Assembly (NCBI GenBank): GCA_001914695.1
Contig: MNCZ01000082.1
Coordinates: 1 to 37,989, forward strand
DNA: 37,989 nt
Source: Gammaproteobacteria bacterium 13_2_20CM_66_19
GTDB lineage: Bacteria > Pseudomonadota > Gammaproteobacteria > Steroidobacterales > Steroidobacteraceae
Reading direction: 5' to 3'
Below, in pieces: positions 4,644 to 31,998 of the stretch. The position numbers and the translations under genes are program-made. Numbering within the stretch: position 1 is the stretch's first letter; every line of letters begins with the position of its first letter. Under the pieces are notes generated by a model. It made no database searches. It was given only the letters and a program-made list of their open reading frames with translations, and was not told the origin of the DNA.

Positions 4644-5531
4644 GTGAGCGCCGCCATCCTCGAAGTAGAGAACCTCGTCAAGCAGTACCCCGGCACCACC
4701 GCCGTGGCCGGCGTGTCGTTCAGCGTGCCCGAAGGCGTCTGTTTCGGCCTGCTCGGCCCGAACGGCGCCGGCAAGACCACCACCATCGAGATCATGGAGG
4801 GGATCCTGCCGCCGACCGCCGGCGAGGTACGCTACCGCGGCGAGCCGCTCGGCGCGCGCTTTCGCGAGGACGCCGGCATTCTCTTCCAGAGGACCGCGCT
4901 GCAGGACTTTCTCACCGTGCGCCAGTCGATCGCGCTGTTCCGGGGGCTCTACGCCCACGGGCTCGAGGTCGATGAGCTAGTCCGCCTGTGCGCCCTGGAG
5001 AAGCTCGCGCGGCGCGACGCCCGCAAGCTCTCCGGCGGCCAGCAGCAGCGGCTGCTGCTCGCGATCGCGCTCGTCAACGATCCGGCGGTGCTGTTCCTCG
5101 ATGAGCCCACCACCGGGCTCGATCCGCAGGCGCGGCGCAATTTCTGGGAGCTGGTGCAGTCGATCAAGGCGCGCCGCAAGACCATCATCCTGACGACCCA
5201 CTACATGGAGGAGGCGGAGCTCCTGTGCGATGAGATCGCCATCATGGATCGCGGTCACATCATCGCCCAGGGCCCGCCCCGCCGGTTGCTGCACGAGCAC
5301 TTCGCGGAGGTGCTGCTCGAGCTGCCGCGCCAGGAGTTTCCGCCGGCCGCGCGCGAGCTGCCGCTCAACATCATCGACGCCAGCGATCGGGTCGAGATCA
5401 GCACCCATGACCTCGAGGCGACGCTGCGCACGCTGCTCGAGGCCCGGGTGCCGCTCGGCCACCTGCGTATCCGGCCCGGCAACCTCGAGGACCTTTTCCT
5501 CGAGCTGACCGGCAAGGAGCTGCGGCCATGA
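4644..5531 (+). CDS. ABC exporter ATP-binding protein (DrrA-like)
   Basis: ATPase subunit of an ABC-2-type exporter acting at the inner membrane; the substrate is unknown. The 295-residue product has Walker A GPNGAGKTT (38-46), Q-loop glutamine 82, signature LSGGQQQR (129-136), Walker B VLFLDEP (149-155) and H-loop H186. These are followed by about 90 C-terminal residues typical of DrrA/CcmA-like subunits. It overlaps its permease by four bases (ATGA), so the two are translationally coupled. The GTG start is the only sensible start before the conserved N-terminal strand. Antibiotic, lipid or polysaccharide export are all possible; nothing nearby decides. Confidence 0.92.
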   Translation: MSAAILEVENLVKQYPGTTAVAGVSFSVPEGVCFGLLGPNGAGKTTTIEIMEGILPPTAGEVRYRGEPLGARFREDAGILFQRTALQDFLTVRQSIALFRGLYAHGLEVDELVRLCALEKLARRDARKLSGGQQQRLLLAIALVNDPAVLFLDEPTTGLDPQARRNFWELVQSIKARRKTIILTTHYMEEAELLCDEIAIMDRGHIIAQGPPRRLLHEHFAEVLLELPRQEFPPAARELPLNIIDASDRVEISTHDLEATLRTLLEARVPLGHLRIRPGNLEDLFLELTGKELRP

Positions 5532-25444: not shown

Positions 25445-25511
25445 CATAACCCCAGAAAGAGGTGCACCTAACCACACGGTATTTAGAGGCCCGAAGGGGC
25501 GCGTCTATAGT
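25445..25511 (+). promoter_or_regulatory. cysI promoter with CATAACC upstream element
   Basis: CATAACC (25445-25451) lies exactly 54 bases before TATAGT (25506-25511); a weak -35, TTTAGA (25482-25487), is 18 bases before the -10. The -10 ends 8 bases before the ATG, with no Shine-Dalgarno sequence. The same CATAACC-N54-TATAGTCG arrangement stands before cysH, so CATAACC is a candidate part of a CysB activator site. Confidence 0.6.
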
Positions 25512-25519
25512 CGATCGGC

Positions 25520-27175
25520 ATGTACCAGTACGACGCGCTGGATCAGGCGTTCGTCGATCGGCGGGTCGCGGAATTCCGCGACCAGATGCGGCGCCATCTC
25601 GCCGGGGAGCTCTCGGAGGACGAGTTCCGCCCGCTGCGGCTGCGCAACGGGCTGTACGTCCAGCGCCACGCTCCGATGCTGCGCATCGCGATCCCCTATG
25701 GACTCCTCGCCGCGCGCCAGTTAGCTAAGCTCGCCGACATCGCGCGCCGCTACGACCGTGGGTTCGGCCACTTTACAACGCGGCAGAACCTGCAGCTCAA
25801 CTGGCCGAAGCTCGCCGACGTGCCCGACATCCTCGCCGAGCTCGCCACCGTGCAGATGCACGCGATCCAGACGAGCGGCAACTGCGTGCGCAACGTCACC
25901 GCCGACCACCTGGCCGGCATCGCCCCCGACGAGGTCGATGATCCCCGTCCCTACTGCGAGATCATCCGCCAGTGGGCCACGCTCCACCCCGAGTTCACCT
26001 ACCTGCCGCGCAAGTTCAAGATCGCGGTGACCGGCTCGCCCGAGGACCGTGCCGCCTCCGAGGTGCACGACATCGGGCTGCACCTGAGGCGCGACGCCGC
26101 GGGCAGCATCGGCTTCACCGTGCTGGTGGGCGGGGGCCTCGGGCGGACTCCCATCATCGGGCAGGTGATCCGGGACTTCCTGCCGCTTCCCGGTCTGCTC
26201 TCGTATCTGGAAGCGATCCTGCGCGTCTACAACCGTCACGGCCGGCGCGACAACCTCAACAAGGCGCGCATCAAGATCCTCGTCAAGTCGCTCGGCATCG
26301 AGCGCTTCCGCGAGCAGGTCGAGGCGGAGTGGCGGCTCTCGCGGGACTCGTCGCCGCTTCTGCCGGCCGCGGAAGTCGAGCGGGTGCGCGGCTTCTTCAG
26401 GCCGCAGCCCTACGAGGCCCTCGAGGACTTCGATGCCACGAGCGGCCGCGAGCCGCGCTTCAAAGCCTGGTATCGCTATAACACCCGCGCTCACCGCGTC
26501 CCCGGCTATCGCGCCGTGTTCGTGGCGCTCAAGGCGCACGGGCACAACCCGGGCGACATGAGCTCGGACCAGATGGATGCGGTCGCCTCGCTCGCCGAGC
26601 GCGTGAGCTTCGGCTTGATCCGCACGACCCACAACCAGAACCTGCTGCTCGGGGACGTGCGGCAGCAGGATCTGTATGAGGCATGGCTCGAGCTCGAGCG
26701 GCTCGGGCTCGCCATGCCCAACATCGGCACGCTCACCGACATGATCGCCTGCCCCGGGCTGGATTTCTGCTCGCTCGCGAACGCCGGCACGCTCGGCGTC
26801 GCCCGGCAGATCCAGGAGCGCTTCGACGATCTCGACTATCTCTACGACCTCGGCGACATCGAGATCAAGATGTCCGGCTGCATGAACGCCTGCGGCCATC
26901 ACCACGTCGGCCACATCGGCATCCTCGGCGTCGACAAGCGCGGCGAGGAGTGGTACCAGATCTCGCTCGGCGGCTCGGCCAACGGCTTCACCGCGCTCGG
27001 CGAGGTCATCGGCCCGTCGGTCCCGAAGAGCGAGGTCGCCTCGACCATCGAGCGCATCGTCGAGGCGTATCGGGCGCTGCGCGCCGACGGCGAGCGCTTC
27101 ATCGATACGCTGCGCCGCGTAGGTCTCGAGCCGTTCCGGGAGGGCGCCTATGCGACGCATCCTGCGGCGGCGTGA
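25520..27175 (+). CDS. cysI: Assimilatory sulfite (nitrite/sulfite) reductase hemoprotein
   Basis: Siroheme/[4Fe-4S] enzyme that reduces sulfite to sulfide with six electrons, in the cytoplasm. The 551-residue product has the duplicated ferredoxin-like half-domains: FGHFTTRQNLQLNWP (83-97) in the first, TTHNQNLLLGDV in the second. The four cluster/siroheme cysteines are C411 and C417 (CPGLDFC) and C454 and C458 (SGCMNACG). No flavoprotein (cysJ) is adjacent, as is usual for the form found with DUF934 proteins in pseudomonads and relatives. Family members may reduce nitrite too, but the cysB, cysH and cysG neighbours argue for sulfite. It overlaps the DUF934 gene by 26 bases. Confidence 0.93.
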   Translation: MYQYDALDQAFVDRRVAEFRDQMRRHLAGELSEDEFRPLRLRNGLYVQRHAPMLRIAIPYGLLAARQLAKLADIARRYDRGFGHFTTRQNLQLNWPKLADVPDILAELATVQMHAIQTSGNCVRNVTADHLAGIAPDEVDDPRPYCEIIRQWATLHPEFTYLPRKFKIAVTGSPEDRAASEVHDIGLHLRRDAAGSIGFTVLVGGGLGRTPIIGQVIRDFLPLPGLLSYLEAILRVYNRHGRRDNLNKARIKILVKSLGIERFREQVEAEWRLSRDSSPLLPAAEVERVRGFFRPQPYEALEDFDATSGREPRFKAWYRYNTRAHRVPGYRAVFVALKAHGHNPGDMSSDQMDAVASLAERVSFGLIRTTHNQNLLLGDVRQQDLYEAWLELERLGLAMPNIGTLTDMIACPGLDFCSLANAGTLGVARQIQERFDDLDYLYDLGDIEIKMSGCMNACGHHHVGHIGILGVDKRGEEWYQISLGGSANGFTALGEVIGPSVPKSEVASTIERIVEAYRALRADGERFIDTLRRVGLEPFREGAYATHPAAA

Positions 27176-27647
27176 GATCGTCGCGGACGACTGGCGCCAT
27201 CTCGGCGAGGGCGCCGAGGAAGGCAGCGCTCTCATCGTGCCGCTCGTCGAGCTGCGCAAGGACCCCGAGCGCTGGCGCCGGTGGCGCGGCCGCCTCGGCG
27301 TGCGCTTGAGCTCGGTGGATCCGGTGGAGGAGCTCGCAGCCGACCTGCCGCGCCTCGATCTGGTCGCGATCGAATTCCCCAGTCCCAGTGACGGTCGCGG
27401 CTACTCGGCCGCAAGGCTGCTGCGCGAGCGACTGGGATTCCGTGGCGAGCTGCGGGCGGTCGGCGCCGGGGTCCGTCAGGACCAGGTGTTCCTGCTCGCG
27501 CGCTGCGGCTTCGATGCGATCGAGCTCGCCGAGAACGAGGACCCCGACGCGGCCCGCCGGGCGCTCGATCGCTATGACGTCGCCTACCAGGGCGGCTCAC
27601 GCGAAGTGGCCCTTCGCAGGCAACGTTTCTCGTCCCGGCCCGGCTGA
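27150..27647 (+). CDS. DUF934 family protein, sulfite reductase partner
   Basis: Small cytoplasmic protein of 165 residues, typically encoded right after this type of CysI. The family core is clear: VAIEFPSPSDGRGYSAARLLRERLGF (in order, about 75-100), ELRAVGAGVRQDQVFLLARCGFDAIEL. The biochemical role is not established; electron transfer to or assembly of CysI has been suggested by association. ATG 27150 lies inside the 3' end of cysI (26-base overlap) after GGAGGG-like sequence, so translation is coupled. It converges on cysB. Confidence 0.88.
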   Translation: MRRILRRREIVADDWRHLGEGAEEGSALIVPLVELRKDPERWRRWRGRLGVRLSSVDPVEELAADLPRLDLVAIEFPSPSDGRGYSAARLLRERLGFRGELRAVGAGVRQDQVFLLARCGFDAIELAENEDPDAARRALDRYDVAYQGGSREVALRRQRFSSRPG

Positions 27648-27669
27648 AGAAGGCCTCTCGGCCTGAGCG

Positions 27670-27689
27670 GCCGCGCCGCAGGGCGCGGC
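27670..27689. terminator. Candidate bidirectional terminator between DUF934 gene and cysB
   Basis: GCCGCGCC (27670-27677) and GGCGCGGC (27682-27689) form a perfect 8-bp stem with a GCAG loop in the 53-base gap between two convergent genes. There is no clear T-tract on either side, so efficiency is uncertain. Confidence 0.5.
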
Positions 27690-27700
27690 GTGCGCACTGT

Positions 27701-28672
27701 CTAGCGCAGCGGCAGCGCGATGTCGGCGAAGAGCTGTGCGACCTCAGCGGCGGAGGCGGCACGGTGGGCGCGCTCGATGAGGCGCCGGTCGAGGTGGGGC
27801 GCGAGCAGCTGCGCGAAGTCGTACATGTACTTGCGCAGGAGTGTGCCGCGGCGAAAGCCGATCCAGGTCGTGTGCGCGGCGAACAGGTGCGAGGCGTCGA
27901 CCCCCGCGAGGTCCGGATCGTCCTCAGCGACCGCCATGTGCGCGACGATGCCCACACCGAGACCGAGCCGCACGTAGGTCTGGATCACGTCCGCGTCGCG
28001 TGCGGTGATCGCGATGTTGGGGGTCAGCGCCGCCTTGGCGAACGCCTCGTGAAGCGATGAGGGCCCGGTGAAGCTGAACGTATAGGTGATGAGCGGGTAG
28101 GCGGCGAGCGCCTTGAAGCTCAAGCGCGCGCCGTTGGCGAGCGCGTGCCCCCGGGGCACGATGACGGTGCGATACCAGCGATAGCAGGGCAGCAGCGTCA
28201 GCTCCGCAAACAGCGCCTCGGAGCCCGTCGCGATGGCGCAGTCGATCCGATCGCCCGCCACCATCTCCGCGATCTGCTCGGAGGTGCCCTGGTGGAGGTT
28301 CAGGCGCACCTGCGGATAGCGCTCGCGGAACTGGCGGATCACGTTGGGCAGCACGTAGCGCGCCTGGGTGTGGGTGGTGCCGATCGAGAGGCTTCCCTTC
28401 CCCTCGTCGCGCAGCTCCGTCGAGAGGTCGCGGATGCTCTGGGCCTCCTGCAGGATCTTCAGCGCCCGCTCGATCACCTGCTGCCCGGCGGGGGTGATGC
28501 GGGTGAGATTGCGCCCCTCGCGCACGAAGATCTGAAAGCCCAGCTCGTCCTCCAGGAGCTTGATCTGCTTGCTCACCCCCGGCTGCGAGGTGTGGAGTTT
28601 GTGCGCTGCGGCCGTGATATTGAGCCCGCTCTGGGCGACGGCCGCGAGGTAGCGCAACTGGTGGAGCTTCAT
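27701..28672 (-). CDS. cysB: LysR family sulfur regulator CysB
   Basis: Transcription activator of sulfate assimilation, responding to N-acetylserine or O-acetylserine in known members. The 323-residue product aligns along its whole length with CysB: MKLHQLRYLAAV, the winged helix with TSQPGVSKQIKLLEDELG, TTHTQARYVLPNVI, LPCYRWYR, YTFSFTGPSSL, DADVIQTYVRLGLGVGI, GFRRGTLLRKYMYDF and a C-terminus like that of E. coli CysB. It diverges from cysH with 121 bases between them. Conservation of the effector-site TTHTQ motif suggests the usual control. Confidence 0.95.
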   Translation of the reverse strand: MKLHQLRYLAAVAQSGLNITAAAHKLHTSQPGVSKQIKLLEDELGFQIFVREGRNLTRITPAGQQVIERALKILQEAQSIRDLSTELRDEGKGSLSIGTTHTQARYVLPNVIRQFRERYPQVRLNLHQGTSEQIAEMVAGDRIDCAIATGSEALFAELTLLPCYRWYRTVIVPRGHALANGARLSFKALAAYPLITYTFSFTGPSSLHEAFAKAALTPNIAITARDADVIQTYVRLGLGVGIVAHMAVAEDDPDLAGVDASHLFAAHTTWIGFRRGTLLRKYMYDFAQLLAPHLDRRLIERAHRAASAAEVAQLFADIALPLR

Positions 28673-28716
28673 GCGCTCCCAAGACTAACTCAACCGGCAC
28701 CTTTCTGTGACCGTTC

Positions 28717-28783
28717 CATAACCGGCGCGCAGCCCTAAAGAAGCAATCATTCGTTCAAGGAGGCGGCGCGGCCTCGTTATAGT
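28717..28783 (+). promoter_or_regulatory. cysH promoter with CATAACC upstream element
   Basis: CATAACC (28717-28723) lies exactly 54 bases before TATAGT (28778-28783), as at cysI. The -35-like TTCAAG (28754-28759) is weak, as expected for an activated promoter, with an 18-base spacer. Ten bases separate the -10 from the ATG and there is no Shine-Dalgarno sequence. It probably drives cysH through modC. Confidence 0.6.
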
Positions 28784-28793
28784 CGGCCCCACC

Positions 28794-29513
28794 ATGGCGG
28801 AGCTGACGGCGCTCGGGCTCGAACGGAAAGCGGCGGCGGTGCACGCGCAGCTCGCGGCCGCCCTCGCCCGCCACGGGCGCCTCGTGTACTCGAACAGCCT
28901 CGGCGCCGAGGCGATCGTGCTCACCGACATCATCGCGACGCAGCTGCCCGAGATCGACATGTTCAGCATCGATACCGGGCGGCTGTACGAGGAGACCCAT
29001 GAGCTGCTCGAGAAGCTGCAGCGCCGCTACCGGCGCGCGATCCGGGTGGTCTACCCGGACGCCGCGGCGCTCGAGCGGCTGGTCGCGCGCCAGGGCGTGA
29101 ACGGCTTCTATCACAGCCTCGAGGCACGCCTCGAATGCTGCCGCATCCGCAAGCTCGAGCCCTTCAAGCGCGCGATCGTCGGGTACGACGGCTGGATCAC
29201 CGGCCTGCGGCGCGAGCAGTCGGCCGCACGCGCTGCGGCCGAGGCCGTCGAGTGGGACGCCGAGCACGGCCTGTACAAGGTGAGCCCTCTGCTCGAGTGG
29301 ACCGAGGCCGAGGTGTGGCAGTACATCCGCGCGCGGCGGCTGCCGTACAATCCGCTGCACGATCGGCAGTTCCCCAGCATCGGCTGTGCGCCGTGCACGC
29401 GCGCGATTCAACCGGGCGAGAGCCGCCGCGCCGGCCGCTGGTGGTGGGAGCAACCGGAGACGCGTGAATGCGGTCTGCATCCGAGGGTGCCTCCCGCGGC
29501 CCTGCCCGCCTGA
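28794..29513 (+). CDS. cysH: [4Fe-4S] adenylyl-sulfate (APS/PAPS) reductase
   Basis: Reduces adenylyl sulfate to sulfite and AMP with thioredoxin. The 239-residue product has YSNSLGAEA (32-40, nucleotide loop), DTGRLYEETH (60-69), ECCRIRKLEP (114-123), IGCAPCTRAI (197-205) and the redox cysteine in RECGLHP (C226). C115/C116 and C198/C201 are the cluster pattern that separates APS reductases from E. coli-type PAPS reductases, so APS is the likelier substrate. First gene of the sulfur-molybdate operon; 14 bases to cysG. Confidence 0.94.
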   Translation: MAELTALGLERKAAAVHAQLAAALARHGRLVYSNSLGAEAIVLTDIIATQLPEIDMFSIDTGRLYEETHELLEKLQRRYRRAIRVVYPDAAALERLVARQGVNGFYHSLEARLECCRIRKLEPFKRAIVGYDGWITGLRREQSAARAAAEAVEWDAEHGLYKVSPLLEWTEAEVWQYIRARRLPYNPLHDRQFPSIGCAPCTRAIQPGESRRAGRWWWEQPETRECGLHPRVPPAALPA

Positions 29514-29527
29514 GCGCGGCGGCCGCC

Positions 29528-30946
29528 ATGGATTACCTGCCGGTCTTTCTGCGCCTCGATGGCCATCCCGTCGTGGTGGTGGGCGGCGGGACGGTTGCGC
29601 TGCGCAAGGCGGCGTGGCTCCGCAGGGCGGGCGCCCGCGTGACGGTCGTGGCGCCGGGCGTGCACGCGGAGCTCGCGCAGCAGGCCGCGCGTGGCGAGCT
29701 GCGGCAAATTGCCGAAGAGTTCACGCCCGAGCATCTCGCGGGCGCCGTCGCCGTCGTCGCCGCCACGGCGGATCGCGCGACGAACGCGCGGGTCGCAGCC
29801 AGCGCGCGCGAGCGGGGCGTGCCGGTCAACGTCGTCGATGACGCCGAGCTCTCGACCTTCATCTTTCCGGCGATCGTCGATCGCTCGCCGCTCGTCGTCG
29901 CGGTGAGCTCGGCCGGACATGCGCCGGTGCTCGCGCGGCGCGTGCGCGAGCAGATCGAGGCGCTGCTTCCCGAGCGTCTCGGCGCGCTCGCGCGCTTCAT
30001 GGGCGCGCGCCGCAGCAGCGTGCAGCGCGCGCTCGGCGCCTTCGCCCGTCGTGGCTTCTGGGAACGCGTCGCCTCGGGTCCCGTCGCCACGCAGCTGCTG
30101 CGCGGGGACGCCGCGCAGGCGGAGCGGGCGCTGGGGCGGGAGCTGCTCGCCGCGCAGCTCCCCGTCGGCGCCGTCGCAAGGCTGGGCGAGGTATACCTGA
30201 TCGGCGCCGGCCCGGGCGATCCCGACCTGCTCACGCTCCGCGCCCTGCAGCTGCTGCAGCGTGCCGACGTGATTCTCTACGACCGGCTGGTGAGCGAGGC
30301 GGTGCTCGAGCGTGCGCGACGCGACGCGGAGCGCATCTTCGTCGGCAAGGAGTCCGGGGGCGAGGATCCGCAGCAGCGCATCCACGAGCTGCTGTTGCGC
30401 CTCGCCCGCGAGGGCAAGCGCGTGGCGCGCTTGAAGGGCGGCGACCCGCTCGTCTTCGGACGCGGCGGGGAAGAGATCGAGGTGCTGGCGATGCACGGCA
30501 TCCCCTGCACCGTGGTGCCCGGGATCACCGCGGCGCTCGGCGCGGCCGCCGCCGCGGAGCTGCCGCTCACCCATCGCGGGCTGGCGAGCAGTGTCACGCT
30601 CATCGCCGGGCGCTTGAGCGACGGCGCCCTGCCCGACTGGCGCTTTCTCGCGAACCCGCAGCACACCGTGGTCGTCTACATGGGTGTGGCTCAGCTACCG
30701 GACATCGTGGCGAGACTCGAAGCCGCGGGAGCCGCCGCGGGGCATCCCGCAGCCATCATCGAGCGGGCGACACTGCCCGGGCAGCGGATCCTGCGCGGCA
30801 CGCTCTCGAACATCGTCGCGCTCGCGCAGGCGTACCGGATCGAGCCGCCCTCGATTCTGATACTCGGCGACGTGGCGGCCTTCGCCGCCACCGAGGCGGG
30901 AGCCGCACCGCTCCCCCGGGCGGGCGCGCCCGGAGTCCCGGCGTGA
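29528..30946 (+). CDS. cysG: Siroheme synthase (multifunctional)
   Basis: Makes siroheme from uroporphyrinogen III: two methylations, NAD-dependent oxidation and iron insertion. Siroheme is the cofactor of the sulfite reductase encoded nearby. From ATG 29528 the product has 472 residues. The N-terminal dehydrogenase/ferrochelatase part has VVGGGTVALRK (18-28), D104 in NVVDDAELSTF and S128 in AVSSAGHAPVLAR; these numbers match the residues described for enterobacterial CysG. The C-terminal methyltransferase has GAGPGDPDLLTLRAL, RLKGGDPLVFGRGGEE and VPGITAALG. Longer frames upstream add residues from the cysH end. Confidence 0.95.
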   Translation: MDYLPVFLRLDGHPVVVVGGGTVALRKAAWLRRAGARVTVVAPGVHAELAQQAARGELRQIAEEFTPEHLAGAVAVVAATADRATNARVAASARERGVPVNVVDDAELSTFIFPAIVDRSPLVVAVSSAGHAPVLARRVREQIEALLPERLGALARFMGARRSSVQRALGAFARRGFWERVASGPVATQLLRGDAAQAERALGRELLAAQLPVGAVARLGEVYLIGAGPGDPDLLTLRALQLLQRADVILYDRLVSEAVLERARRDAERIFVGKESGGEDPQQRIHELLLRLAREGKRVARLKGGDPLVFGRGGEEIEVLAMHGIPCTVVPGITAALGAAAAAELPLTHRGLASSVTLIAGRLSDGALPDWRFLANPQHTVVVYMGVAQLPDIVARLEAAGAAAGHPAAIIERATLPGQRILRGTLSNIVALAQAYRIEPPSILILGDVAAFAATEAGAAPLPRAGAPGVPA

Positions 30947-31998
30947 GCGCGCAGCGCGCCCCGGCCGGCGGCGCCGTCAGCGGCTTCGTCGGCGCGGTCG
31001 GCAACACGCCCCTCATTCTGCTCAAGCGGGTGAGCGAGGAGACCGGCTGTCAGATCCTCGGCAAGGCCGAGTTCATGAATCCCGGCGGCTCGGTCAAGGA
31101 CCGCGCCGCGAGCGCGATCGTTCTCGAGGCCGAGCGGCAGGGTGCGCTCCCACCGGGAGGCACGGTGGTCGAGGGGACCGCGGGCAATACCGGCATCGGC
31201 CTCGCTCACGTCTGCAATGCGCGCGGCTACCGCTGCGTCATCGTCATGCCCGACAACCAGTCGCCGGAGAAGTACGCGCTGCTCGCGATGCTCGGTGCCG
31301 AGGTCCATCAGGTACCGGTGGTTCCCTACAGCAATCCCAACCAGTACCAGCACGTCGCGAAGCGGCTCGCCGCCTCGCTCCCCAACGCCATCTGGTCCAA
31401 CCAGTTCGACAACACCGCAAACCGCGACGCCCACGCGCGCACCACGGGACCCGAGATCTGGGAGCAGACCAACGGGCGCATCGATGCCTTCGTCGCCGCC
31501 TCCGGCACCGGCGGCACCTTCGCAGGGGTCGCGGAGTACCTGAAGTCGCGGCGGCGCGCGGTGCGCTGCGTGCTCGCCGACCCGCCGGGGAGCAGTCTCT
31601 ATGAGTACGTGCGCAGCGGCACCCCCAAGGCCACCGGCAGCGGCTCGATCACCGAGGGGATCGGCGTCGGTCGCGTCACGAAGAATCTCGAGGGTGCGCC
31701 GATCGATGAGGCCGTGCACATCGAGGACGCCGAGACGGTGCGGCACGTCTACCGGCTGCTGTACGAGGAGGGCTTGTTCCTCGGCAGCACCAGCGGAATC
31801 AACGTCGCCGCCGCGGTCGAGGTGGCCGGCTCGCTCGGGCCTGGGCACACCATCGTGACCGTGCTCTGCGACGGCGGGGCCAGGTACCAGTCGCGCCTCT
31901 TCAATCGCGAGTGGCTCGAGCGAAAAGGCCTCGCCGCACACGTGCCCCGCCCGCCCGAGCATCCCCCCGTTACGCTCGAGGCGGGTCTGGTCGCCTGA
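30943..31998 (+). CDS. cysK: Cysteine synthase
   Basis: PLP enzyme that makes cysteine from O-acetylserine and sulfide, finishing the pathway encoded around it. The 351-residue product has VGNTPLILL (19-27), the cofactor lysine K52 in NPGGSVKDR, the substrate loop EGTAGNTGIGLA, phosphate-binding ASGTGGTFAGV and SGINVAAAVE. EGTAGNTG in place of EGTSGNTG and a longer C-terminus put it in the longer CysK-like subgroup. Some members of that subgroup act as cystathionine synthases or cysteine desulfhydrases, so the direction of the reaction is inferred from context. GTG start overlaps the cysG stop (GTGA). Confidence 0.9.
   Translation: MSAQRAPAGGAVSGFVGAVGNTPLILLKRVSEETGCQILGKAEFMNPGGSVKDRAASAIVLEAERQGALPPGGTVVEGTAGNTGIGLAHVCNARGYRCVIVMPDNQSPEKYALLAMLGAEVHQVPVVPYSNPNQYQHVAKRLAASLPNAIWSNQFDNTANRDAHARTTGPEIWEQTNGRIDAFVAASGTGGTFAGVAEYLKSRRRAVRCVLADPPGSSLYEYVRSGTPKATGSGSITEGIGVGRVTKNLEGAPIDEAVHIEDAETVRHVYRLLYEEGLFLGSTSGINVAAAVEVAGSLGPGHTIVTVLCDGGARYQSRLFNREWLERKGLAAHVPRPPEHPPVTLEAGLVA

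Follow-up and report, generated by a model that had tools for sequence, protein, structure and literature searches.

Introduction

The operators of LysR-type regulators are built from two halves, named the distal recognition site and the proximal activation site. A T-N11-A consensus is given for such operators in PMC5002191. For CysB of enteric bacteria, PMC11329422 places the binding region upstream of the −35, centered 50–60 bp before the transcription start, describes sites with a very weak consensus and a cysB gene that is unlinked to its targets, and offers a model in which a tetramer rests on two short half-site pairs over ~60 bp of DNA. Leaderless genes carry as their signature a TANNNT box ~12 bp before the start codon; a survey of 239 gamma-proteobacterial genomes reported them from 15, chiefly of the Xanthomonadales and Legionellales (PMC3160421). 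Here, we describe a pair of promoters that stand before cysI and cysH, with cysB between them, on contig MNCZ01000082.1 (37,989 nt, assembly GCA_001914695.1) of Gammaproteobacteria bacterium 13_2_20CM_66_19, a member of the Steroidobacteraceae. The whole contig is called the window below. Both promoters contain the composite CATAACC-N54-TATAGT.

With the enteric CysB promoters (cysJIH, cysK, cysP) as described in PMC11329422, the pair has in common a CysB-family regulator, cys targets, and a region upstream of the −35; unlike them, the site is sharply conserved in its genus, cysB is divergent to cysH, only two promoters of the source genome assembly carry it, and the genes are probably leaderless. 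The two-site layout, the divergent gene pair, and a T-N11-A at the cysH distal site are shared with LysR-type operators, whereas the cysI distal site is without the A and the proximal elements differ between the targets. The feature in common with leaderless genes is a −10 element 6–10 nt before most cysI, cysH, and cysB starts, although here a biosynthetic pair and its regulator are so arranged. The CysB literature that we searched, which left most subscription journals outside, held no description of this site. Judged from its sequence, the promoter pair is real, is conserved in the genus, and is larger than an earlier note on this DNA had described; it is a new, lineage-specific form of a known kind of control, probably by CysB. 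We consider it probable that both sites are CysB-dependent, leaderless sigma-70 promoters at which a CysB tetramer would occupy a distal and a promoter-specific proximal site.

A Composite Promoter Pair Conserved in the Genus

The composite lies at 25445–25511 before cysI and at 28717–28783 before cysH. The distal CATAACC elements (25445–25451 and 28717–28723, plus strand) are separated by exactly 54 bases from the −10 hexamers TATAGT (25506–25511, 8 nt 5′ of the cysI start codon, and 28778–28783, 10 nt 5′ of that of cysH, plus strand), and CG follows TATAGT directly at both sites. Poor −35 hexamers, TTTAGA (25482–25487) and TTCAAG (28754–28759), each stand 18 bases 5′ of TATAGT. Set against a sigma-70 promoter, the pair shows a TANNNT −10 at a near-constant distance from the start codon and −35s that are poor relative to TTGACA. 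The gene between the two promoters, cysB (27701–28672, minus strand), encodes a LysR-type regulator that passes the NCBIfam NF009326 CysB equivalog cutoff (444.3 bits versus 436), and its best PDB matches are the CysB chains 4gwo and 1al3. On all of these points, namely the identical composite before two sulfur units, the weak −35s with their 18-base spacers, and a CysB encoded in between, the earlier note had read the DNA correctly.

When the spacing was allowed to range over 50–58, the window gave the 2 matches and none of 100 shuffles gave any. In the source genome assembly (3.14 Mb, 136 contigs, 82.6% complete), the composite occurs only at these two sites for spacings of 48–60, with 0 matches in the reversed-pattern control; because the genome is incomplete, an extra site could be missing.

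A pattern scan of the genus finds ATAACC-N44–66-TATAGT in 54 of 58 genomes. Summed over the scan table, the pattern has 104 matches and its reversed form 37; of the 104, the listing as read assigns 96 to one of two promoter types, each marked by its own middle element. Loci were also anchored on proteins, to avoid motif-based selection. The cysI set comprises all 53 genomes with a cysI match, one locus each (a second match of 37% identity in G434 is excluded, and the split genes of G430 and G471 are represented by the N-terminal piece only), and the cysB set comprises 49 of the 50 genomes with a close CysB (G426 is left out, as are the weaker second CysB copies of G469, G470, and G477). The exact composite stands 5′ of cysI in 47 of the 53 loci, with gaps of 52–55 and the start codon 6–9 nt past TATAGT. 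Beside cysB, it is followed by ATG or GTG before cysH or cysG in 42 of 49 loci, with gaps of 53–54. The earlier note had staked its claim on conservation of the pair before cysI and cysH in relatives, and within the genus the pair is conserved.

The six cysI loci that miss the exact composite have ATAACT (L182, L275), TAGAAT (L227), CATACT (L231), TATATT (L233), or no ATAACC (L167). Among the seven cysH misses, L244 has ATAACT, L262 has ATAACT and TATAAT, L257 has a later start codon, L253 meets a contig edge, L266 is without ATAACC, and L267 and L268 have other sequence between cysB and the element; the composite is present farther off in L267, and L268 (G438) has no exact cysH-type composite. 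The extra stretches of L267 and L268 in the cysB–cysH gap are similar to one another and show inverted repeats by eye. At L246, L251, L257, and L262, no cysH was found and the promoter precedes cysG, recognized by eye from its N-terminus.

The base 5′ of ATAACC is nearly always C where the composite is exact at cysI (46 of 47) but is T in 10 of the 42 exact composites at cysH, which makes ATAACC a better unit than CATAACC. The dinucleotide after TATAGT is most commonly CC at cysI (19 of 47, with CG second at 15 of 47) and CG at cysH (18 of 42). In 24 of the 53 cysI loci (e.g., L272–L292), cysI is only 55–59% identical to that of the window and the promoter is of the same type: the proximal element is kept in 24 of 24 with small variants, and ATAACC is exact in 22 (ATAACT in L182 and L275). 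The promoter has thus persisted while the gene changed greatly, which points to replacement or rapid divergence of cysI behind it.

That the source genome assembly holds only two sites would suit a chance resemblance, or a recent duplication of one promoter. Chance is contradicted by the empty shuffles and by the genus-wide conservation, and the unrelated middle parts of the two promoters, described below, argue against a recent duplication; we count this explanation as refuted by the conservation in the genus.

Two Promoter Types with a Common Geometry

A column-by-column comparison resolves each promoter into three conserved parts (ATAACC, a proximal element, and the −10), with lower conservation from the element to the −10 as an internal control; its anchors partly predetermine the GGTATT and TTCGTT columns. 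The cysI element, CMAACCAnnSGGTATTTAG, has A, A, C, and A columns that are invariant in 53 loci, and its window copy, CTAACCACACGGTATTTAGA (25468–25487, plus strand), overlaps the poor −35. The cysH element is the dyad CAGAAGCAATCATTCGTTCTG, whose consensus arms pair at 8 of 10 opposed positions. The window's own cysH element, AGAAGCAATCATTCGTTC, which with the poor −35 covers 28739–28759 (plus strand), differs from the consensus dyad at its ends, and its core pairs at 6 of 8. Geometry is common to both promoters and the middle sequence is not. Among the loci that fit the template, the gap from ATAACC to the element is 15 at cysH (all 44, from a set of 49) and 17–18 at cysI (all 49, from a set of 53), and that from the element to TATAGT is 21–23. 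From the T of the cysH distal site, T-N11-A is present in most relatives (A at T+12 in 44 of 45). At L219, L227, L231, L248, and L261, a second GTAACC-like copy is seen by eye one helical turn (~11 bp) 5′ of ATAACC and is perhaps a further half-site.

The elements are specific to their promoters. The cysI-type pattern (≤1 mismatch) was matched 59 times, across 54 of the 58 genomes of the genus, and its reversed form 6 times; by coordinates, 52 of the 59 fall at cysI-type promoters. Of the 58 genomes, 47 have the cysH-type pattern (≤2 mismatches), once each, and none has its reversed form; 44 of the 47 matches adjoin a cysB match, and the contigs that carry the remaining three (G448, G451, G471) have no cysB match. 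Counted from the protein-anchored loci, the cysH-type element adjoins a divergent cysB in 46 of 49. The three loci without the element in the stretch read are L253, at the contig edge, and L267 and L268, with other sequence between and the element farther off.

Two unrelated middle sequences also suggest an alternative in which CysB would bind the shared ATAACC only and the proximal elements would be the sites of two other, promoter-specific regulators. Such two-factor promoters would explain why the elements are alike in geometry and not in sequence, with each found about once per genome, why the cysH element forms an independent dyad with 8 of 10 consensus pairs, and why L266 has no ATAACC at cysH while the element and −10 remain. 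However, no second regulator was recognized in the interval, in which not every open reading frame was searched; the near-fixed distance from ATAACC to the element suggests one protein assembly; and an ATAACC-like core occupies the cysI proximal position in two relatives from outside the genus (L170, L173). We regard two-factor promoters as unlikely and continue to favor a single CysB assembly on both parts.

Probable Leaderless Starts

Since TATAGT stands 6–9 nt (cysI) or mostly 9–10 nt (cysH) before the start codon, the cysI and cysH mRNAs are probably leaderless. The distance is 6–9 nt in all 47 exact cysI cases and, measured to the first ATG or GTG, 9–10 nt in 37 of 42 exact cysH cases. 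For cysB, TANNNT stands 6–10 nt 5′ of the start in 40 of 49 genus loci, and in the window the predicted −10 is TAGTCT (28682–28687, minus strand), 9 nt 5′ of the start codon. The box is also seen at several loci from outside the genus; examples are TAGAGT, 7 nt ahead of cysI in L169 and L170, and TAAAGT, 8 nt ahead of cysI in L178 and L179. A metagene look at 200 kb of a relative, with crude start calls, found TANNNT at 13–17 nt in 10 of 147 first starts versus 8 of 682 later ones. By eye, TANNNT also precedes likely start codons by 9–11 nt at window positions 4644, 13023, 20779 (minus), and 12116 (minus), so leaderless transcripts may extend beyond the cys genes.

The CTATA-n9-TATAG consensus in PMC5002191 raised the idea that TATAGT is itself a LysR half-site. 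We rejected it on the near-constant distance to the start codon and on variation that mostly keeps TANNNT (TATATT, TAGAAT, TATAAT, and TAGAGT, with a single CATACT in L231).

Occurrence Beyond the Genus and in E. coli

Within the family, the exact composite is rare beyond the genus: 17 of 60 genomes were matched, 4 of them genus members and the remaining 13 among the 56 other genomes. A class-wide search of 369 genomes with the strict pattern gave matches in 110. The reversed-pattern controls were also well filled, and among the matches listed, those read by eye lacked both middle elements, so the search carries no signal at that breadth. In a second genus, g3, the proximal position ahead of cysI (L170, L173) is occupied by CATATCCAAAGGCTATTT or CATATCCAAACCATATTT, both similar to the ATAACC core; ahead of cysB, L152 and L156 have CAGAACGAA, followed shortly by TCTTTC. 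Because the two classes already differ in g3, both appear to predate the genus.

Nine E. coli CysB targets were scored, with a mixed outcome. With the cysI-type matrix, 3 of the 11 best among 136,696 positions fall in the upstream zones of these targets, and ATAACC or GGTTAT occurs in 3 of the 9 target regions, compared with 2 of 36 control upstream regions. The region upstream of E. coli cysD (L344) reads, by eye, TCATTCGTTCT-N10-CTATAGTCG, and so has in common with the cysH promoter an 11-mer of the cysH-type element and the −10, at a shorter gap; this resemblance may be chance.

Probable CysB-Activated Weak Promoters

Promoter positions given here assume a transcription start 7 nt after TATAGT. 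On that assumption, the conserved block spans ~−72 to −34, with its center at ~−53, and lies against a weak −35 in both promoters. By position, this fits the enteric placement in PMC11329422 and agrees with the earlier note's remark that the site is just upstream of the −35, as in E. coli. The enteric-like placement and the fit to the tetramer model of the same source lead us to read both as CysB-activated weak promoters. A CysB tetramer would bind the distal ATAACC (~−72 to −67) and the promoter-specific proximal element that touches the −35 (~−50 to −34), with the site centers approximately three helical turns apart. With inducer, it would contact RNA polymerase at a TATAGT −10 with a poor −35, and transcription would start at the start codon or a few bases away. 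The cysH site, situated between the divergent cysB and cysH promoters, would probably also serve in cysB autoregulation.

The link to CysB is drawn from neighborhood, regulator family, and geometry, which would also allow another LysR-type or global regulator to be behind the conserved block, with cysB a mere neighbor. Against this stand the presence of the cysH-type element beside divergent cysB in 46 of 49 genus loci and, in PMC11329422, the status of cysJIH, which includes cysI and cysH, as an enteric CysB target with sites placed as they are here; another regulator seems to us very improbable.

Several observations do weigh against CysB control at both promoters. Of 51 cysI distal sites, a single one has the A of T-N11-A, and the proximal elements of cysI and cysH are dissimilar. 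ATAACC is missing at cysI in L167 and at cysH in L266, with the other parts kept. A cys-type exact composite was seen by eye in only 1 of 56 family genomes from outside the genus (G388). The cysD upstream region of the source genome has none of the parts of the composite (30 further cysD regions of the genus were read by eye only). With the cysH-type matrix, 0 of the 25 best positions are in zones of the E. coli CysB targets, and the best rank is 58.

These results bear on the earlier note in two ways. Its compact CysB operator gains support from the conservation of the pair in the genus, but not in the form of CATAACC alone: the conserved unit is ~40 bp long with a promoter-specific proximal half. 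The note also asked whether further hits would precede cys, ssu, tau, or sbp genes. With only two sites in the source genome assembly and a cysD without the parts, the composite does not mark out a broader regulon of this kind, although genes of the ssu, tau, and sbp groups were not sought singly.

Genomic Context

The cysI-like gene (25520–27175, plus strand) encodes a one-component sulfite/nitrite reductase hemoprotein that scores far under the cutoff of TIGR02041, the NADPH-type CysI model. The cysH product (28794–29513, plus strand) is of the APS-reductase type (TIGR02055, 248.3 bits versus a cutoff of 235.3). It is followed 3′ by cysG (29468–30946; NF007922, 554.3 bits versus 400) and then by a cysteine synthase A gene (30943–31998; NF007989, 505 bits versus 387). 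Between the two targets, cysB is the only regulator gene recognized, with the short open reading frame at 27150–27647 not searched. Of the named relatives, those nearest are metagenome assemblies, with the label Steroidobacteraceae for the closest and Gammaproteobacteria or Proteobacteria for the next.

Conclusions

The unrelated proximal elements allow a more tentative proposal, which we hold to be possible and rather less than probable: one CysB may use two unrelated proximal operators, set at the same position by the shared ATAACC and spacing, by geometry and not by sequence, with the two classes apart since before the genus arose and with distinct responses of cysI and cysH. If this is true, cysI and cysH could differ under one regulator in, for example, sensitivity to inducer or anti-inducer. 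Two proximal sequences under one regulator would mean either that position outweighs sequence there or that a second factor is involved. The locus offers a candidate site resolved base by base over ~50 genomes, with two promoters of equal geometry and natural variants. It is a ready system for studying the way in which a CysB tetramer is placed on DNA and whether sequence or position governs recognition of its second site.

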